Origin: Yinghuangia seranimata
Lineage (GTDB): Bacteria; Actinomycetota; Actinomycetes; Streptomycetales; Streptomycetaceae
Direction: 5' to 3'
Length of the DNA stretch: 64,000 bases
Assembly (NCBI RefSeq): GCF_029953285.1
Contig: NZ_JASAOI010000002.1
Location: 124,001-188,000, forward strand
Position numbers and translations under genes: made by a program. Each line of letters opens with the position of its first letter. The stretch's first letter is position 1. Below, one piece after another: positions 12,224 through 20,581 of this stretch. A model generated the notes under the pieces. The model saw nothing but the letters and a program-made list of their open reading frames with translations, was not told the DNA's origin and searched no databases.

Positions 12224-13150
12224 ATGGCCATGCGAGTGTTCGTGGCAGGCGGGACCGGGGTGTTGGGGCGGCGGCTCGTGCCGCAGCTCGTCGCCCGCGG
12301 GCACCAGGTGACGGCGACGACGACCTCCGCCGCCAAACTGGGGCAGCTGCAGCGGATGGGCGCGGAAGGCGTCGTCATGGACGGCCTGGACGCGGCGTCC
12401 GTGCGCGACGCGGTCGAGCAGGCCCGGCCGGACACGATCGTCCACCAGATGACGTCGATCGCCGGCAAGCCCGACATCAAGCACATGGACCGGTGGTTCG
12501 CCGCCACCAACCGGCTGCGCACCGAGGGCACCGACCACCTGCTGGCCGCCGCCGCGGCGACCGGCGTACGGCACTTCGTGGCGCAGGGCTACGCGGGCTG
12601 GAACGGCCTGCGCGAAGGCGGCTGGGTCAAGACCGAGGAGGACCCGCTCGACCCGATGACGGGCACCACCGCCGCGCCCGGGATGGCGGCCATCGCCCAC
12701 GTCGAGCGGACCGTCCTCGAAGCCGGCGGCGCGGTACTGCGCTACGGCGCCTTCTACGGGCCGGACGCCAGCGACGACCAGGTCCAGATGGTCCGCAAGC
12801 GGCAGTTCCCGCTGGTCGGCAGCGGCGCCGGATACAGCTCGTGGATCCACCTCGACGACGCGGCGGCCGCGACCGTCCTCGCCGTCGAGCAGAAGGCCAC
12901 CGGGGTGTTCAACATCGTCGACGACGAGCCCGCCCCCGCCGCCGAGTGGCTCCCGTATCTGGCCGAATGCGCGGGCGCCAAGCGCCCGATGCGGGTTCCG
13001 GTGTGGCTTGCCCGGCTGCTCGCCGGCCAGGTCGCGGTGGTCATGATGACCGAGGGACGCGGCTTCTCCAACACCAAGGCCAAACGCGAACTCGGCTGGG
13101 AGCCGCGCTACTCAACGTGGCGTCAGGGATTCAAGGAGGGCGTCGCGTGA
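12224..13150 (+). CDS. NAD(P)-dependent epimerase/dehydratase (atypical SDR)
   Basis: 308 residues. The extended-SDR dinucleotide motif is GGTGVLG (9-15). The family features are weaker further on: no clear YxxxK is present, but AHVERTVL and the RYGAFYGPDAS segment follow the pattern of NAD-dependent epimerase relatives that partner ECF41 sigma factors. AGGAG precedes the ATG; a second ATG six bases on is possible. Its stop overlaps the sigma-factor start by four bases (GTGA). ECF41 factors typically control one adjacent carboxymuconolactone decarboxylase, oxidoreductase or epimerase gene. The substrate is unknown. Confidence 0.82.
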   Translation: MAMRVFVAGGTGVLGRRLVPQLVARGHQVTATTTSAAKLGQLQRMGAEGVVMDGLDAASVRDAVEQARPDTIVHQMTSIAGKPDIKHMDRWFAATNRLRTEGTDHLLAAAAATGVRHFVAQGYAGWNGLREGGWVKTEEDPLDPMTGTTAAPGMAAIAHVERTVLEAGGAVLRYGAFYGPDASDDQVQMVRKRQFPLVGSGAGYSSWIHLDDAAAATVLAVEQKATGVFNIVDDEPAPAAEWLPYLAECAGAKRPMRVPVWLARLLAGQVAVVMMTEGRGFSNTKAKRELGWEPRYSTWRQGFKEGVA

Positions 13151-14094
13151 CGCCGGCCGAGGAGTTCGAGGAGCTGCGGCCCCTGCTGTTCTCGATCGCG
13201 TACCGGATCCTCGGCAGCGTGAGCGAGGCCGAGGACGCGGTGCAGGAGACCTGGCTGCGGTACGAGGCGGTGGTGGACCGGCCGGCGTCGGCCAAGGCGT
13301 ATCTGTCCGCGGTCGTCACCCGCCTCTCCATCGACGTGCTGCGCTCGGCACGGGCGCGGCGCGAGGAGTACGTCGGGGCGTGGTTCCCCGAACCGTTGCT
13401 GAGCGACCCGTACGACGACCCGGAACGCTCCGCCGAACTGGCCGACTCCGTCTCGATGGCCGCCCTGCTGCTGCTCGAACGGCTCAGCCCGCTCGAGCGC
13501 GCGGTGTTCGTGCTGCGGGAGGTCTTCGGGTTCACCTTCGGGGACATCGCCACCGCGGTGGGGCGCTCGGAGGTCGCGTGCCGTCAACTGGCCGTACGCG
13601 CCCGCCGCCACATGGACGCCGGGCGGCCCCGGTTCGAGGCCGACCGGCACGAACACGAGGAACTCGCCGAGCGGTTCTTCGACGCCTTCCGCGAAGGCGA
13701 CGTCGACGCGTTGCGCGAACTGCTGGCCGCCGACGTGCAGATGGTCGGCGACGGCGGCGGCAAGGCCCCGCTCTGGTCCAAGGGCGGCGCGTTCGGCTTC
13801 GACAAGGTCGCGGCGATGCTCATCGCCTTCGCCCCGCCGTTCCTGTTCATCGGCGGCACCGTCGAAGCGCGCGAGATCAACGGCCAGCCCGGCGCGATCT
13901 TCCGCGACCGCGACGGCAAGGTTTTCAGCGCCTGGGTGCTCGACATCCTCGAGGGGCGGATCCAGGCGATCCGGACCGTCCTCAACCCCGACAAGCTCGG
14001 CCACGTGGGGCCGGTGGCCGACGCCTGGGCGGCCGTACGCGCGGCCCGGAACACGCACGGTTTCCCGGTCGACGCGGACCCCACGCAGCCGTGA
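13147..14094 (+). CDS. sigJ: ECF41-group RNA polymerase sigma factor with SnoaL-like C-terminal domain
   Basis: 315 residues. Sigma region 2 (AEDAVQETWLRYE, about 15-85) and region 4 (LSPLERAVFVLREVFGFTFGDIATAVG, about 113-160) are followed by a domain of about 140 residues of the SnoaL/NTF2 fold. Two ECF41 hallmarks are visible: WFPEP at 79-83 in the linker and DGGGK at 202-206 in the extension. In this group the extension replaces a separate anti-sigma factor and tunes activity, and none is encoded nearby. The GTG start overlaps the epimerase stop, so the two are translationally coupled. The symbol follows the mycobacterial SigJ relatives; the group assignment is firmer than the name. Confidence 0.9.
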   Translation: MTPAEEFEELRPLLFSIAYRILGSVSEAEDAVQETWLRYEAVVDRPASAKAYLSAVVTRLSIDVLRSARARREEYVGAWFPEPLLSDPYDDPERSAELADSVSMAALLLLERLSPLERAVFVLREVFGFTFGDIATAVGRSEVACRQLAVRARRHMDAGRPRFEADRHEHEELAERFFDAFREGDVDALRELLAADVQMVGDGGGKAPLWSKGGAFGFDKVAAMLIAFAPPFLFIGGTVEAREINGQPGAIFRDRDGKVFSAWVLDILEGRIQAIRTVLNPDKLGHVGPVADAWAAVRAARNTHGFPVDADPTQP

Positions 14095-14132: not shown

Positions 14133-14714
14133 ATGACCAAGATCGGCGTCATCATCGGCAGCACCCGCCCCGGGCGCGCGGGCGACCAGGTCGCCCGCTG
14201 GGTCCGCGGGCGCGCCGCCGAACACGCGGGCGACGCGGCCGAGTTCGAGCTCATCGACCTGCTGGACCACGCGCTCCCACTGCTGGACGAGCCCGTCCCG
14301 CCGGCCAGAACCCCGGGCGAGAACCCGCACACCGTCCGCTGGGCCGAACGGATCGGCGCCTGCGACGCGTTCATCATCGTCACCCCCGAGTACAACACCG
14401 CTCCGCCCGCGTCCCTCACCAACGCCATCGACTACCTGCACCGGGAGTGGGGCGGCAAGCCGGTCGCGTACGTCGGCTACGGCCGCTACGGCGCGCTCAT
14501 GGCCGTCCAGAAGCTCCGCGCCCAGGCGGGGGCGCTGCGCATGGCCGACATCGGGCCGCAGCTGGTCCTGTCGCTCATCGACGACTTCGTGGACCTGACC
14601 GACTTCCAGCCGCAGGCGACACGCACCGCCGAGCTGCACCGGCTCCTGGACGAACTCCTGGCCTGGTCCCGGGCGCTCGGCACCCTGCGGGCGGTGCCGC
14701 AGGCCGCCGCCTGA
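14133..14714 (+). CDS. NADPH-dependent FMN reductase (flavodoxin-like)
   Basis: 193 residues. The phosphate-binding loop GSTRPGR (9-15), the TPEYN motif and the flavin-contact region GYGRYGALMAVQKLR are those of the NADPH-dependent FMN reductase family. Members transfer hydride to FMN, azo dyes or quinones. It is 38 bases downstream of the ECF41 sigma factor on the same strand, so it probably shares the promoter at 12143 and belongs to the same stress response. Confidence 0.88.
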   Translation: MTKIGVIIGSTRPGRAGDQVARWVRGRAAEHAGDAAEFELIDLLDHALPLLDEPVPPARTPGENPHTVRWAERIGACDAFIIVTPEYNTAPPASLTNAIDYLHREWGGKPVAYVGYGRYGALMAVQKLRAQAGALRMADIGPQLVLSLIDDFVDLTDFQPQATRTAELHRLLDELLAWSRALGTLRAVPQAAA

Positions 14715-14761
14715 GGCCACTCGTACGCCGGTGGCGGCGACCTCGGCCGGCACCGAGGCGC

Positions 14762-14819
14762 CGACCACCGGTCCCGCCGGTCAGGTCGGTCGACCACCGG
14801 CCGTGCGGGTCAGGTCAGC
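14762..14819. repeat. Imperfect 29-bp tandem duplication
   Basis: Two consecutive 29-base units both begin CGACCACCGG and both contain GTCAGGTC. The second overlaps the 3' end of the UbiA gene (stop at 14810-14812). It lies between the convergent reductase and prenyltransferase genes. Confidence 0.6.
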
Positions 14820-15715
14820 CGTCCGCCGCGGGCGACCAGCAGGAAGACCGTGAGCCCCGCCACCGCGACGGCCGCGAGGAACGGCGTGTTCGAACGCTCG
14901 TCGGCCGGCCAGGCCGCCCCTGCCGCGGCGACCGGGGCCGCGGCGGCCAACGTCGCCCAGCCCAGCGGTCCCGCGCCGCCCGACGGCCCGCACGCCACCA
15001 CGGCGACAGCCGTGAGCAGCACCGGCGGGGCCAGCCGGCGAACCCACCGCGGACCGAGGCGCTGCGGCAGGCCGCGTACGCCGCCCGCCCGGTCGTCGGC
15101 GATGTCCGGCAGCACGTTGAGCAGATGCGCCCCCACACCGAGCAGCGCCGCGCCGGTGACCGCCCACCACGCCGGCCACGGATGCCCGGGCAGGCCGAGC
15201 GTGACGAACGCGGGCAGCGAGCCCAAGCCGACGGCGTAGGGCAGCGGCGACAACGGCGTGCGCTTGAGGGCGACGTCGTACGCCCACCCGCCCGCAAGCA
15301 CGCCGACCAGGTGCGCCGCACCCGCGGGCCACCCGCTGAGCAGCGACAACGGCACGCACGCCGCGAGCGACAGACCCGACGCGACGCCGATCGCCCGCGG
15401 CGAGAGCTCACCGGACGCTGCGGGTTTGTCGGTCCGCCCGGCCGCCGCGTCCCGCCGCGCGTCGAGCGCGTCGTTGCACCACCCGATGGACGCCTGCCCC
15501 GCCAACACCGCCGCACCGACCGCCGCCGACCCGGCCACCCCCCGCCCCGCGGCCGCCGCGACCGCCGTGACGAACGCCGTGACCGCCACGGTCGGGAGCG
15601 GATGACACGCACGCGCGAGCGCCGACAGACACCGCACCGTGCGGGCGGCACGCCGCGGGCCCGGTTCGACGGGGACTGACAGGCGTCGGACGGCGAGGGA
15701 CGGGTAGTCGCTCAT
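14810..15715 (-). CDS. UbiA-family prenyltransferase
   Basis: 301 residues with about eight or nine predicted membrane helices. Two Asp-rich motifs that bind Mg-diphosphate are present: NDALDARRD and PDIADDRAG. The family transfers an isoprenoid chain to an aromatic or polar acceptor within the membrane. It starts at ATG 15713-15715, only 61 bases from the divergent type III polyketide synthase, so the aromatic product of that cluster is a plausible acceptor. A menaquinone or haem-pathway role is less likely from the context. The ribosome-binding site is weak. Confidence 0.85.
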   Translation of the reverse strand: MSDYPSLAVRRLSVPVEPGPRRAARTVRCLSALARACHPLPTVAVTAFVTAVAAAAGRGVAGSAAVGAAVLAGQASIGWCNDALDARRDAAAGRTDKPAASGELSPRAIGVASGLSLAACVPLSLLSGWPAGAAHLVGVLAGGWAYDVALKRTPLSPLPYAVGLGSLPAFVTLGLPGHPWPAWWAVTGAALLGVGAHLLNVLPDIADDRAGGVRGLPQRLGPRWVRRLAPPVLLTAVAVVACGPSGGAGPLGWATLAAAAPVAAAGAAWPADERSNTPFLAAVAVAGLTVFLLVARGGRLT

Positions 15716-15776
15716 GACCGCAAAGCTAGAGCAACCGCCACCAAACCGGCGGTAGGCAACGGGAAGGACTCCTCGG

Positions 15777-16916
15777 ATGCCGCATCCCCGCCAGAAACAC
15801 CCGACCAGGCGGGCCGCTCCCGCCGCCGAGACCGCCGAGACCGCCGCGGCCGGCGCCGTCATCGCCGCGGTGGACGTCGCCCTGCCGCCGCACCGCTACC
15901 CGCAGGAGGCGATCACCGAGATGGTCGGCGACGTCTGCCTCCCCGCCGGCGCCGACCGGGGTCTGCTTCAACGGGTGCACGCGTCCGCCGGGGTGCGGAC
16001 GCGGCACCTTGCGCTGCCGATCGAACAGTACGCGGGGCTCGGGGACTTCGGCCGCGCCAATGACGCCTGGATCGCCACGGCGCTCGACCTCGGCGAGGAG
16101 GCGGTCGGCGGCGCGCTCAAACAGGCCGGGCTCGAACCGGGCGACGTCGACCTGATCGCCTGCGCGTCCGTCACCGGCCTCGCGGTGCCGTCGCTGGACG
16201 CCCGGCTCGCGGGACGGCTCGGCATGCGGCCCGACGTCAAGCGCTTACCCCTGTTCGGCCTCGGCTGTGTCGCGGGCGCCGCCGGGATCGCACGCCTGCA
16301 CGACTACCTGCGCGGGCACCCCGGCGACGTCGCCGTGCTGCTCTGCGCCGAACTGTGCTCGTTGACCGTGCAACGCGGCGACGACTCGCCCGCCAACCTC
16401 GTCGCGGGCGCGCTGTTCGGCGACGGCGCCGCCGCTGTCGTCGCCGTCGGGAACGCGCATCCGCTGGCGGCCCGCGCCGAAGGGCCCCGCGTGCTCGCCA
16501 CGCGCAGTGAGCTGTACCCCGAGACCGAGCACGTCATGGGCTGGGAGATCGGCTCCTCCGGCTTCAAGGTCGTGCTCAGCGCCGACGTGCCGGCCTTCGT
16601 CCGCGCGGACCTACGGCGCGGCGTCGAGGAGTTCCTCGCCGACCACGGCCTCGGCATCGGCGACATCACCACCTGGGTGTCCCACCCCGGCGGCCCCAAG
16701 GTCCTCGACGCGGTCGCCGAGAGCCTCGGCCTGGGTGCCGACGCCCTTGCGGTGACCTGGAGTTCGCTGGCCTCCGTCGGGAACATGTCGTCGGCGTCGG
16801 TGCTGCACGTCCTCCAGCAGACCCGCGAGGCACACCGGCCGCCGCCGGGCTCGTGGGGACTGCTGCTCGCCCTCGGCCCGGGGTTCTGCTCCGAGCTGGT
16901 CCTGCTGCGCTGGTGA
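15777..16916 (+). CDS. srsA: Type III polyketide synthase (alkylresorcinol/alkylpyrone synthase type)
   Basis: 379 residues, normal for chalcone-synthase-like enzymes. The catalytic triad is Cys164 in GLGCVAGAAG, His303 in SHPGGPK and Asn336 in SVGNMSSAS. These enzymes extend an acyl starter with malonyl-CoA units and cyclise the chain. The order synthase - isoprenylcysteine-type methyltransferase - flavin monooxygenase is that of srsABC of Streptomyces griseus, which makes methylated phenolic lipids and alkylquinones. The symbol rests on that gene order plus family membership. ATG 15777 opens a 25-residue unstructured N-terminus. Confidence 0.88.
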   Translation: MPHPRQKHPTRRAAPAAETAETAAAGAVIAAVDVALPPHRYPQEAITEMVGDVCLPAGADRGLLQRVHASAGVRTRHLALPIEQYAGLGDFGRANDAWIATALDLGEEAVGGALKQAGLEPGDVDLIACASVTGLAVPSLDARLAGRLGMRPDVKRLPLFGLGCVAGAAGIARLHDYLRGHPGDVAVLLCAELCSLTVQRGDDSPANLVAGALFGDGAAAVVAVGNAHPLAARAEGPRVLATRSELYPETEHVMGWEIGSSGFKVVLSADVPAFVRADLRRGVEEFLADHGLGIGDITTWVSHPGGPKVLDAVAESLGLGADALAVTWSSLASVGNMSSASVLHVLQQTREAHRPPPGSWGLLLALGPGFCSELVLLRW

Positions 16917-16927
16917 AGGAGCCCGCC

Positions 16928-17443
16928 ATGGACTGGTACACGCTGCTGGTCGCCGCCGTCGCGGCCGAACGCCTCGCGGAACTCGTCGTCGGCAAGCGCA
17001 ATTCCGCGTGGACGCTCGCCCGCGGCGGTGTCGAGTACGGGCGCGGCCACTATCCCTGGATGGTCGCCCTGCACACCGGGCTCCTGCTCGGCTGCCTCGT
17101 CGAACCCGCGGTCGCGGACCGGCCGTTCCTGCCCTGGCTGGGCTGGCCGATGCTCGCGCTCGTCGTCCTGGCGCAGGGGCTGCGGTGGTGGTGCATCCTG
17201 GCGCTCGGCCCGTACTGGAACACCCGGGTCATCGTGGTGCCCGGCGCGCGGCTGGTCCGGCGCGGCCCGTACCGGTTCGCGCTGCGCCACCCGAACTACG
17301 TCGCGGTCGCCGTCGAGGGCTTCGCACTACCGCTGGTGCACAGCGCGTGGGTCACCGCACTGCTGCTCACGGTCGGCAACACGCTGCTGATGCGCGTGCG
17401 GATCCCGTGCGAGGACGCGGCGTTGCGGGCGGCGGTGGCGTGA
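16928..17443 (+). CDS. srsB: Membrane methyltransferase, isoprenylcysteine carboxyl methyltransferase family (SrsB-like)
   Basis: 171 residues, about four or five membrane helices. The C-terminal signature VRRGPYRFALRHPNYVAVAVEG contains the Pro-Tyr and His-Pro-Asn-Tyr elements that bind S-adenosylmethionine in ICMT proteins. In the srs pathway the enzyme O-methylates the alkylresorcinol ring. AAGGAG overlaps the stop of the synthase gene, and its own stop overlaps the next start (GTGA), so the three genes form one operon. Confidence 0.85.
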   Translation: MDWYTLLVAAVAAERLAELVVGKRNSAWTLARGGVEYGRGHYPWMVALHTGLLLGCLVEPAVADRPFLPWLGWPMLALVVLAQGLRWWCILALGPYWNTRVIVVPGARLVRRGPYRFALRHPNYVAVAVEGFALPLVHSAWVTALLLTVGNTLLMRVRIPCEDAALRAAVA

Positions 17444-18507
17444 CCGGCTTCGACGTGGACGTGGTGGTCGCGGGCGGAGGACCCGCGGGGCTCGCGACCG
17501 CCCTGCACGCCGCGCGCGCCGGATTCACGGTCGCCGTCGCCGAACCGCGCGGCGCCCCGGTCGACAAGGCCTGCGGCGAGGGCCTGATGCCCGGCGGGGT
17601 GAGCGCGCTCAGGGCGCTCGGCGTCGAGCCGCCGGGCCACCCCTTCGCCGGCATCCGCTACCAGCGAGGCGACCGGTGCGCCGACGCGCTGTTCCGGAAC
17701 GGCACCGGGCTGGGGGTACGGCGCACCGACCTCAGCGACGCGCTGCACAAGGCGGTCGCGGACGCGGGCGTGCCCGTACTGCCGGTCAAGGTGACCGCCG
17801 CCGCGCAGGACCGCACCGGCGTGACCGCGTACGGGCCCGACCTGCGCGCCCGATGGCTCGTCGCCGCCGACGGCCTGCACTCCCCGCTGCGCCGTGCGCT
17901 CGGCCTGGACCGGCCGAGCCCCGGACCGGCACGGTACGGCCTGCGCCGCCACTTCGCCGCCGCGCCCGCGAGCCGCTTCGTCGAAGTCCACTGGGGCGCA
18001 CGGTCGGAGGTCTACATCACCCCGCTGTCGCCCGAGCTCGTCGGCGTCGCGGTACTCACCTGCGTCCGCGCGCCGTTCGAGGAGCAGCTTGCCGAATTCC
18101 CCCACCTCGCACGCCGCTTCGCCGACACCCGCGCGGTGACAGCCGTACGCGGAGCCGGCCCGCTGCGCCGTACTGCGGCCCGCAGGGTGTGCGGACGCGT
18201 GCTGCTCGCCGGCGACGCCGCGGGCTACGTCGACGCCCTCACCGGCGAAGGCGTCGCCCTGGCCCTCACCGGCGCCGAGGCCCTGGTCGCATGCCTCGCC
18301 CGCGGCCGCCCGGACGCCTACGAGGCCGCCTGGCGCCGCGTGACCCGCCACTACCGCCTCCTGACCGCCGCCCTCCTCGCAGCCCGCCGCCACCCGCCCC
18401 TGGCCCGCACCATCGTCCCGGCAGCGGCACGCCTGCCCTTCGTCTTCGACGCCGCCGTCGACGCGATGGCGCACTGCCCCGCACCCGAGCGCGGCGGCCG
18501 CCGGTAA
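17440..18507 (+). CDS. srsC: FAD-dependent monooxygenase (SrsC-like)
   Basis: 355 residues. The FAD-binding GGGPAG is at 12-17, and the second FAD motif GRVLLAGDAAGYVDALTGEG is typical of geranylgeranyl-reductase and aromatic-hydroxylase flavoproteins. CGEGLMPGG after the first motif is also characteristic. In the S. griseus srs pathway the equivalent enzyme hydroxylates the resorcinol ring, leading to alkylquinones. The GTG start overlaps the methyltransferase stop by four bases. The C-terminus is Pro/Arg-rich. Confidence 0.85.
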   Translation: MTGFDVDVVVAGGGPAGLATALHAARAGFTVAVAEPRGAPVDKACGEGLMPGGVSALRALGVEPPGHPFAGIRYQRGDRCADALFRNGTGLGVRRTDLSDALHKAVADAGVPVLPVKVTAAAQDRTGVTAYGPDLRARWLVAADGLHSPLRRALGLDRPSPGPARYGLRRHFAAAPASRFVEVHWGARSEVYITPLSPELVGVAVLTCVRAPFEEQLAEFPHLARRFADTRAVTAVRGAGPLRRTAARRVCGRVLLAGDAAGYVDALTGEGVALALTGAEALVACLARGRPDAYEAAWRRVTRHYRLLTAALLAARRHPPLARTIVPAAARLPFVFDAAVDAMAHCPAPERGGRR

Positions 18508-18583
18508 ATCGGGCGACAGCGCGGCCCGTTTTGTGGATCATGACGGCCGACCATGGCCAACGCCGATCCGCCGGGGGAACGCG

Positions 18584-20581
18584 ATGACGGCACAACCACT
18601 CGCCTCGCTCGACAGCGTGGCGTGGGACCGGCTGGAGACGGCGTACCCGGGCGACCGCGCCGGGGAGATCCCGCGGGCCCTTCGGCGGATCGCCGAGGCC
18701 GGGGCGGAGGCGACCGAAGCCGACTGCGAGCCGCTGTGGGTCCTGGTCGCGCGGGACGGCCGGATGTGCGCGGCGGCCGTGGCCGCTCTCCCGTTCGTCA
18801 CGGCACTCGCCGCCGACCCGGGCGTCGGCGCGCGGTTCGAGCTCGTGCAGCTGTTGGCGTACATGCAGGGCGAGGGGGCCGCCGACGAGGACTGGGCCGC
18901 GGCACGTGCGCTGCTCGCGGACCCCGATCCCGCCGTGCGGCGTGCGGCGATCCAGCTCGCGGACGGCGTGGGCCGGCTCATCGAGCAGTGGCGGATCGAG
19001 ACGGACCCGACGGTCCGCGTGCCGTTGCTCATGGCGCTCGGTTCGGAGGCGGCCGCGAGCACGGAGCCCGGGCCCGTCGCCGAGGCCCGCGCCGTTCTGG
19101 CCCAGGTGCTGGAGGGCGACGACCCTGTGCTCGAGGTCGCGGCGGTCTACGCGTCCGCGAGCCTGGACCGGGAGGTGCCTCGCCGTCGGCTGGGCCGAGT
19201 CGTGGAAGTGTTCAGCGACGCCCGGCAGCGGCCGCGGTTCCCGGAGATGTGGTGGTCGACCGCGGACGAGGAGATCGGCTTCGAGCGCGAGGACGTCGTC
19301 CGCTGGGGGGCCGAGCTGTTCAGGCACCACGACCCCGACGTCGAGCTCGACTTCTGCACGCGGTTGGCGGACGCGGCCTACGCGGGCGGGGACTCCGTGC
19401 TCAGCCGGCTCGCCCTGGAGCTGGCCTGGGACCTGCTGACGCGGCGGCGGTCCGTGGCCGCCGCGCTGCCGCAGCCGGCGGGCCGGCTGCTGACCGATCG
19501 GGACGCGGAGCTGCGGCTGCGCGCGGCGCACCTGCTCGCGATGCTGGGTCGGGCGTCCGCGCCGTACGCCGACCGGCTCGCGGCGCTGCTCGACGACACC
19601 GCCGGCGCAGGGGGCCTGGACGGCCGCGTGTGCGACTTCGCGCGCTGGGCCCTGGCCCGGATCGGCGACCCGCGCGCCCTTCCCGGCCTGGTCGAGCAGT
19701 TGTGCGCGCAGTGCGACGAAGAAGGGCGCGGCTACGTCGTCTACGAGCCGCACCGCCCGGAACCCGAGGACGTCCTGGTGCCGTTGCGGGCGCACGCCGA
19801 CGTGCTGCTTCCGGCGATCCGCGACGCGTTGCGGCGGGCCGGCTCGGCCGTCGACGATCCGACCCCCGCACTGGTCAACGGGCCCGCGCGCCCGTTCCTC
19901 CGGGTCCTGGCGGCCTGGGGTGAGGACGCGCTGCCGGCGCTGCCCGAGGTCGTCCCGTTCCTCCGCCACACGTTCACCGGGCTCGACGCGGCCTTGGCAC
20001 TAGGGGCCATGGGCCCGGGGGCGGCCGCGGCCGCAGAGGCCGTGCGCGCATGCTCGGCGCTGGACTACCCCGGCAACCACATGACCGTCGCCTACATCGC
20101 CGCGCGCATCGCCGGAGACGACACGGCGGAGCTGGCGTTCGTCGGAGACAAGCTGCTGGCGGACGACGAGTGGTCGCCCGGGGCGGCGTGCCGCCTCGCC
20201 CGCTTCGGCGCCACCGCCGCGCCGTACGCCGACGCGGTCCGGCGGATCATGGACAGCACCGACCCGTGGTCGACGATAGGCGCGGCGGCCACGCTGTGGT
20301 CGATCACGGGCCGGCCCGAACCCTCGGCGTCGGTGTTGGAGGAGTACGTGCTGCCCGTCGCCGACGGCGGCGACCTCTTCGGGCTGTTCCGTGAGGCTTT
20401 GCGCGCGCTGATCCCGATCGGCCGCATCAGCCCGACGGCGCGTGCCGCGCTGCGGGCGATCCGCGACGCCGACCGCCGGCTCTCGCACGAGCGGGACCAT
20501 ACGGCGGTCCTCCGCGACGAGGAGTTGTGCGCGCTGATCGACGCCGCCCTCGCCGGCGGCGGTCCGGAGGTCCCGCGCTGA
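18584..20581 (+). CDS. Large HEAT-repeat protein
   Basis: 665 residues composed almost wholly of alpha-helical repeats of about 30-40 residues. Examples are DPDPAVRRAAIQLADGVGRL, DAELRLRAAHLLAMLGRASAPYADRL and DARWAL-type segments followed by GDPRALPGLVEQL. This is a HEAT/armadillo-like solenoid with no catalytic motif or signal peptide, so a protein-interaction scaffold is likely. A smaller relative is at 9755-10477. The start is ATG 18584 after GGGGGAAC. There is no obvious partner nearby. Confidence 0.75.
   Translation: MTAQPLASLDSVAWDRLETAYPGDRAGEIPRALRRIAEAGAEATEADCEPLWVLVARDGRMCAAAVAALPFVTALAADPGVGARFELVQLLAYMQGEGAADEDWAAARALLADPDPAVRRAAIQLADGVGRLIEQWRIETDPTVRVPLLMALGSEAAASTEPGPVAEARAVLAQVLEGDDPVLEVAAVYASASLDREVPRRRLGRVVEVFSDARQRPRFPEMWWSTADEEIGFEREDVVRWGAELFRHHDPDVELDFCTRLADAAYAGGDSVLSRLALELAWDLLTRRRSVAAALPQPAGRLLTDRDAELRLRAAHLLAMLGRASAPYADRLAALLDDTAGAGGLDGRVCDFARWALARIGDPRALPGLVEQLCAQCDEEGRGYVVYEPHRPEPEDVLVPLRAHADVLLPAIRDALRRAGSAVDDPTPALVNGPARPFLRVLAAWGEDALPALPEVVPFLRHTFTGLDAALALGAMGPGAAAAAEAVRACSALDYPGNHMTVAYIAARIAGDDTAELAFVGDKLLADDEWSPGAACRLARFGATAAPYADAVRRIMDSTDPWSTIGAAATLWSITGRPEPSASVLEEYVLPVADGGDLFGLFREALRALIPIGRISPTARAALRAIRDADRRLSHERDHTAVLRDEELCALIDAALAGGGPEVPR

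Follow-up and report, generated by a model that had tools for sequence, protein, structure and literature searches.

In the 64,000-nucleotide window analysed here (Yinghuangia seranimata, contig NZ_JASAOI010000002.1, positions 124,001 to 188,000), genes for a type III polyketide synthase (PKS), a methyltransferase of the ICMT family and a flavin adenine dinucleotide (FAD)-dependent monooxygenase lie next to a gene for a membrane prenyltransferase of the UbiA family (Table 1). These four genes probably make a prenylated phenolic lipid, with UbiA acting as the last enzyme, on a methoxyhydroquinone, and most likely by O-prenylation. In the pathway that we infer from the families, motifs, layout, conservation and co-inheritance of the genes, the PKS would convert a fatty acyl starter and extender units into an alkylresorcinol (or a resorcylic acid), the ICMT-type enzyme would O-methylate this product, and the monooxygenase would hydroxylate the ring, generating an alkyl-methoxyhydroquinone that can be oxidised to the quinone. 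UbiA would then transfer a prenyl group, most likely onto the hydroxyl introduced by the monooxygenase, giving an ether, as in the name of the product of the agq cluster. The prenyl donor would be supplied from elsewhere in the genome, where three prenyl diphosphate synthases are found, none being encoded in the cluster.

The first three steps are proposed because of the srs and pkq literature, available to us in excerpts like the other papers cited here, in which PKS action, O-methylation and hydroxylation are described. The prenyl transfer step is proposed because of the agq precedent and the co-inheritance of UbiA with the monooxygenase. The original prediction for these genes, a hybrid lipid made by prenylation of an alkylresorcinol or an alkylquinone, holds as far as a prenylated phenolic lipid is likely. 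Its weaker part is the bare alkylresorcinol, which is a less likely acceptor as UbiA appears to follow the monooxygenase; the methoxyhydroquinone is the most likely one.

Linkage of UbiA to the srs-type core in Streptomycetaceae

In a survey of 200 Streptomycetaceae genomes (thresholds of 1e-100 for the PKS, 1e-50 for UbiA and 1e-55 for the FAD enzyme, set after the score gap was visible), the PKS is found in 106 genomes, UbiA in 102 and both in 100. The loci underlying A1 and A2 had been located by means of the PKS, a choice that biases toward linked UbiA. Such a survey of UbiA beside srsA homologues had been suggested with the original prediction. The two genes lie within 3 kilobases (kb) of each other in all 100 genomes that have both, with a median gap of 215 bases. 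The linked UbiA is divergent in 97 of these genomes and upstream and co-directional in the other 3. UbiA had been described as an addition to srsABC; it is instead the usual neighbour, being present in 100 of the 106 PKS-bearing genomes. In the tree, the window UbiA is placed inside a supported clade of 24 genes, all of which adjoin an SrsA-type PKS (two of these PKS genes being split).

The presence of UbiA also follows that of the monooxygenase. Both are found in 102 of the 200 genomes and neither in 97; no genome has UbiA only, and in the single genome with only the monooxygenase (G429), whose assembly is split into 1650 contigs, this gene stands at the beginning of a contig. The Fisher value of this association is 1e-57, which is uncorrected for genome relatedness and is therefore not a probability of independent events. 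The monooxygenase is also absent from all six PKS-bearing genomes that lack UbiA (G416, G420, G426, G458, G535 and G539), and the methyltransferase is retained in four of these six, as seen in the stretches inspected. The simplest reading of this joint loss is that the acceptor of UbiA is the hydroxylated product, which would be the methoxyhydroquinone. The position of UbiA relative to the core varies (divergent, upstream and co-directional, or up to 5.5 kb distant), and its link with the core is therefore more than inherited gene order. Per this co-location and co-inheritance, UbiA is a likely member of the same pathway, as had been proposed.

The UbiA frames are free of stops in all 102 Streptomycetaceae genomes that have the gene. 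Two genomes, G457 and G582, have UbiA but no PKS match at the threshold, and in both a split PKS frame adjoins UbiA. Loci L061 and L062, from two Streptomycetaceae genomes, show such a split PKS frame beside an intact UbiA gene, and at L062 the FAD gene is split too.

Comparison with the srs, pkq and agq clusters

The three core genes correspond to srsABC of Streptomyces griseus in families and in order (PKS, methyltransferase, FAD hydroxylase; PMC4573997, PMC9927152, PMC10896814), but srsABC is presented in the available text of these papers as three genes without UbiA. The locus of S. fimicarius, which we take to be a close relative of S. griseus and compared in its place, has the three core genes and a divergent UbiA that is 56% identical to the window UbiA over 214 residues. 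The three-gene order is also that of the 'srs operon' of S. coelicolor, sco7669-sco7671 (PMC4573997). The available text of that paper differs in naming no product and no UbiA ('prenyl' occurs 0 times), but a primer that it places upstream of sco7671 matches exactly within the UbiA gene of Y. soli (L005, L046), and in reverse reading it gives the residues IGWCN, which belong to the first UbiA motif. A divergent UbiA is therefore almost certainly present upstream of sco7671 in S. coelicolor. Host M1317, from which sco7669-7671 are missing, probably retains this UbiA gene, as the primer falls inside it. The pkqABC genes of mycobacteria and Streptomyces sp. MNU77 similarly encode a PKS, a methyltransferase and an oxidoreductase, and their quinone is described as an electron carrier, but a prenyltransferase is not described in the available part of the report (PMC9927152).

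A UbiA gene next to such a core has been listed before. In the T3PKS region of Gephyromycinifex aptenodytis, genes for UbiA, a stilbene-synthase-type PKS, an ICMT and an FAD oxygenase are adjacent, and the region is assigned a similarity of 100% to the alkylresorcinol cluster of S. griseus; it differs in having been proposed for angucycline formation, which its gene families do not suggest (PMC8779670). In S. pratensis, a T3PKS, a 'lycopene cyclase' and UbiA are reported together (PMC4239341), and agq-like matches are reported for two Streptomyces strains (PMC7093587).

The closest functional precedent is the agq cluster, a PKS-UbiA cluster that yields prenylated lipids of like type, published in 2011 (Awakawa et al., as cited in PMC3569393, PMC10896814 and PMC7692728). 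The Actinoplanes missouriensis products are 6-alkyl-4-O-dihydrogeranyl-2-methoxyhydroquinones (PMC3569393), and agqA-D are the genes responsible (PMC7692728, which lists agq lipid masses of 486.41, 500.42, 556.49 and 570.50). The agq locus of A. missouriensis 431 is assigned here, by inference, to a locus in genome G726, in which the sole PKS match at E 1e-45 among the matches listed lies 1.9 kb from the sole UbiA-family match. At this locus the genes for the PKS, an acyl-CoA-dehydrogenase-like protein and a Methyltransf_11 protein are on one strand and UbiA is on the other. The same families in the same order, beside radA and disA, are found in the loseolamycin gene table (PMC7587189).

When the window cluster is compared with this inferred agq locus, both have a type III PKS, a methyltransferase, a flavoenzyme and UbiA, and the two UbiA proteins are homologous (51% identity over 195 residues); like agq, the window cluster has an AgqD-family UbiA next to a type III PKS. 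The PKS proteins, however, are just 39% identical, and the Methyltransf_11 and acyl-CoA-dehydrogenase-like proteins of agq belong to other Pfam families and have no BLASTP similarity to the window enzymes. The window cluster would thus work like agq without being agq in all its genes, combining an srs-type core with an agq-type prenyltransferase. One UbiA family occurs with both srs-type and agq-type tailoring enzymes, although these two sets are unrelated, which suggests that selection is for the prenylated methoxyhydroquinone.

As a member of its family the window cluster is unremarkable, and its kind of pathway is already known; the new element from the survey is a prenyltransferase that, throughout Streptomycetaceae, is tied to the srs core and tracks the monooxygenase almost perfectly. 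The general srs-UbiA linkage and the co-inheritance of UbiA with the monooxygenase are unreported in the literature searched, which included few subscription journals, and Awakawa et al. (2011) may mention streptomycete homologues; the family-wide regularity of UbiA is thus apparently unreported. If UbiA uses the quinol, then what this very common lipid pathway of actinomycetes finally makes, and the role as a respiratory quinone proposed for its product, need to be re-examined. It is also conceivable, though we consider it doubtful, that the streptomycete srsABC/polyketide quinone system in fact comprises four genes, with UbiA capping the quinol at oxygen and thereby converting a redox carrier to a redox-silent ether lipid. 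In that case the work on three srs or polyketide quinone genes would have missed the end product, and the divergent promoter pair could balance a respiratory quinone pool of the spore stage against a structural membrane meroterpenoid.

Occurrence outside Streptomycetaceae and alternative readings

Several observations weigh against a prenylated end product. Among 40 loci of named genomes found through the PKS, the UbiA family is present in 27, the methyltransferase in 39 and an FAD match in 36 (one of them, at L022, out of place); the order PKS, methyltransferase, FAD gene is seen in 35, and 11 of the 13 loci without UbiA keep this order complete. In a sample of 396 genomes of the phylum, an SrsA-type PKS (over 450 bits) is found in 20, with UbiA within 1.2 kb in 11; one further genome has UbiA elsewhere, and eight, all of one genus (g4, probably mycobacteria), lack this UbiA family. 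The core thus occurs without UbiA outside Streptomycetaceae, which argues that the three-gene product is useful unprenylated. The UbiA family is found in 42 genomes of the sample, and 27 of these have no PKS within 5 kb, so at lower similarity this family has other contexts; in four more UbiA genomes a distant PKS lies within 2.2 kb. The polyketide quinones of strain MNU77 are described without a prenyl group, 'prenyl' and 'ubia' each occurring 0 times in the available text (PMC9927152), and the predicted agq lipids went undetected in four Phytohabitans strains (PMC7692728).

In one alternative, alkylpyrones, as for Pks11, or unprenylated polyketide quinones are the product, and UbiA plays a small part or acts only under certain conditions. 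Pks11, to which the PKS is closest among solved proteins, is deposited as an alpha-pyrone synthase, and prenyl-free polyketide quinones have been reported from Streptomyces spores (PMC9927152). It is to a methyltransferase and a monooxygenase, however, that quinone formation is ascribed in the excerpts on the srs and pkq operons, and we regard this alternative as unlikely.

Still less probable is that UbiA acts earlier or at carbon, prenylating the ring of the alkylresorcinol or of the quinol and generating a ubiquinone-like C-prenyl hybrid. The UbiA enzymes that act on phenols are mostly C-prenyltransferases, and UbiA relatives adjoin PKS genes of the agq/los type that have quite different tailoring genes. 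Against this, the name given to the agq product in the excerpts cited above is that of an O-dihydrogeranyl ether, and the loss of UbiA with the monooxygenase from Streptomycetaceae genomes in which the PKS stays, in four of six together with the methyltransferase, is consistent with an acceptor that the monooxygenase produces.

That UbiA is merely adjacent and serves menaquinone, haem O or some other pathway is very improbable: the phylum-sample genomes with UbiA and no PKS nearby, and 14 Micromonosporaceae genomes, among the matches listed, in which an srsA-type PKS lies far from an intact UbiA, would agree with it, but the Y. seranimata genome has three further genes of the UbiA family, two of which score much higher against it (231 and 186 bits), co-location in Streptomycetaceae is complete, co-inheritance with the monooxygenase holds in 102 of 103 genomes, and five Streptomycetaceae genomes that have only a distant type III PKS (235-247 bits; G161, G171, G246, G334 and G369) lack a UbiA of this family.

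The preferred reading, in which UbiA prenylates a PKS-derived methoxyhydroquinone, can also be considered in Micromonosporaceae. Among 150 genomes of this family, UbiA is found in 141, and in at least 108 of these a type III PKS of another, distantly related kind lies no more than 5 kb away. Only 5 of the 141 UbiA frames contain stops; four of these are in genus g290, which has no PKS at E 1e-45 among the matches listed, and the fifth is in G592, which has no srsA-type PKS and no PKS next to UbiA among the matches listed. Five of the 14 genomes with an srsA-type PKS far from an intact UbiA were inspected (L081, L082, L085, L086 and L087), and all have a complete three-gene core. These patterns of decay and retention of UbiA amount to natural experiments that speak for a shared function, short of proof. 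UbiA with in-frame stops at an agq-type locus is seen in L075, L080, G622, G644 and G677, with no agqA- or srsA-type PKS among the matches listed. At L071 (Micromonosporaceae genus g267) an intact UbiA is present at an agq-type locus that contains no PKS, while an srsA-type PKS is found elsewhere; 11 genomes of the sample have this g267 pattern, among the matches listed. UbiA relatives of other actinomycete families are found at L047 and L049-L051, with no PKS in the stretch covered.

Gene layout, protein families and the divergent gap

Table 1. Features of the cluster in the window.
Feature	Position	Strand	Remark
UbiA-family membrane prenyltransferase, 301 aa	14810..15715	-	Pfam UbiA 1.1e-24; both Asp-rich motifs intact
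Divergent gap, 61 bases, expected site of both promoters	15716..15776		partly conserved in Y. soli
ACCGCC/GGCGGT inverted repeat	15734..15753 (arms 15734-15739 and 15748-15753)		probably not functional
Type III PKS, probably of the SrsA/Pks11 clade, 379 aa	15777..16916	+	Pfam chalcone/stilbene synthase N and C domains
Membrane methyltransferase of the ICMT family, 171 aa, resembling SrsB in position and family	16928..17443	+	Pfam ICMT 7.3e-26
FAD-dependent monooxygenase, 355 aa, resembling SrsC in position	17440..18507	+	Pfam FAD_binding_3 4e-17

The coordinates given earlier for the four genes are exact, as are the srsABC-like order of the three core genes, which agrees with their Pfam families and positions on one strand, and the distance of 61 bases to UbiA on the opposite strand. 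The PKS and methyltransferase genes are separated by 11 bases, and the methyltransferase stop and the GTG start of the FAD gene overlap by 4 bases. Among 76 loci (L005-L080), fetched for holding the PKS or UbiA so that the counts of these two are partly a matter of selection, the counts are 66 for the PKS, 57 for UbiA, 51 for the methyltransferase and 45 for the FAD gene. Of the flanking genes, a major facilitator superfamily gene recurs in 7 loci and six others in 0-1 each, many loci being too short to cover all flanks. The cluster therefore consists of four genes, the neighbours on either side not being recurrent. The flavin mononucleotide (FMN) reductase gene (14145-14714) was considered as a fifth, quinone-reductase gene and rejected, as it recurs in 0 of the 76 loci.

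The Asp-rich motifs of UbiA are NDxxDxxxD and PDxxxD, and their residues N53, D54, D57, D61, D176 and D180 are invariant across 20 relatives; presumably they bind magnesium and diphosphate. The predicted model has a predicted local distance difference test (pLDDT) score of 95.6, and its top match in the PDB is the UbiA homologue 4tq3 with geranyl diphosphate and magnesium (template modelling score 0.74, 16% identity). The two motifs and the predicted all-helical membrane fold place the protein in the UbiA superfamily. Its identification as a haem O synthase (CtaB) is rejected (cyoE_ctaB, 24.6 bits; cut-off 210.3), and so is that as MenA (PRK06080.1-3, 18.2; cut-off 264).

The closest solved relative of the PKS, Pks11, is from M. 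tuberculosis (3.4e-123). The Cys of GLGC, the His of HPGGPK and the Asn of GN(M/L)SS are conserved, and we take these residues to be catalytic. With the PKS of S. fimicarius, used as a stand-in for SrsA, the identity is 65%. A Trp is given as a resorcinol marker (PMC9927152); its use as a discriminator between resorcinol and pyrone formation was dropped, because the GW of the window PKS is also present in Pks11 in the alignment. The methyltransferase is 52-77% identical to 11 relatives, and its solved relatives are ICMTs.

The model of the FAD enzyme has a pLDDT of 88.1, and its PDB matches are flavin hydroxylases, halogenases and, at rank 15, one geranylgeranyl-reductase-like protein. As a geranylgeranyl reductase the enzyme scores below the cut-off (GG-red-SF, TIGR02032, 109.3 bits; cut-off 158.8), so that a role as the reductase making a dihydrogeranyl group is not supported by score, though it would be compatible with the predicted fold. 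The Y. soli monooxygenase (L046 3634-4744; L005 9483-10544) spans two overlapping frames, either by a frameshift or by a sequencing error, and is matched as G412:C7:111133-111873 and 111716-112243.

In the alignment of the divergent gap with Y. soli, both start codons and the GGAAGGA ahead of the PKS gene are retained, and a search of 14700-18700 for sigma-70-like promoters found none. The inverted repeat described earlier between the two genes is present, but its right arm falls within an 11-base stretch that is absent from Y. soli. The exact repeat with its 8-base spacer has 0.04 expected occurrences in the window, rising to 0.72 when spacers of 2-14 bases are allowed. Of 2000 random 61-base pieces taken from the window, 26% contain some perfect 6-base inverted repeat with a spacer of 3-14 bases, as do 7% of 5000 shuffled versions of the gap. 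A function of this repeat as an operator is rejected, because it is unconserved in Y. soli and frequent by chance.

Further away, a gene at 13147-14094, after an NAD-epimerase-like gene, resembles by eye an extracytoplasmic function sigma factor with a C-terminal extension, and has a relative in L035 (39% identity over 293 residues).

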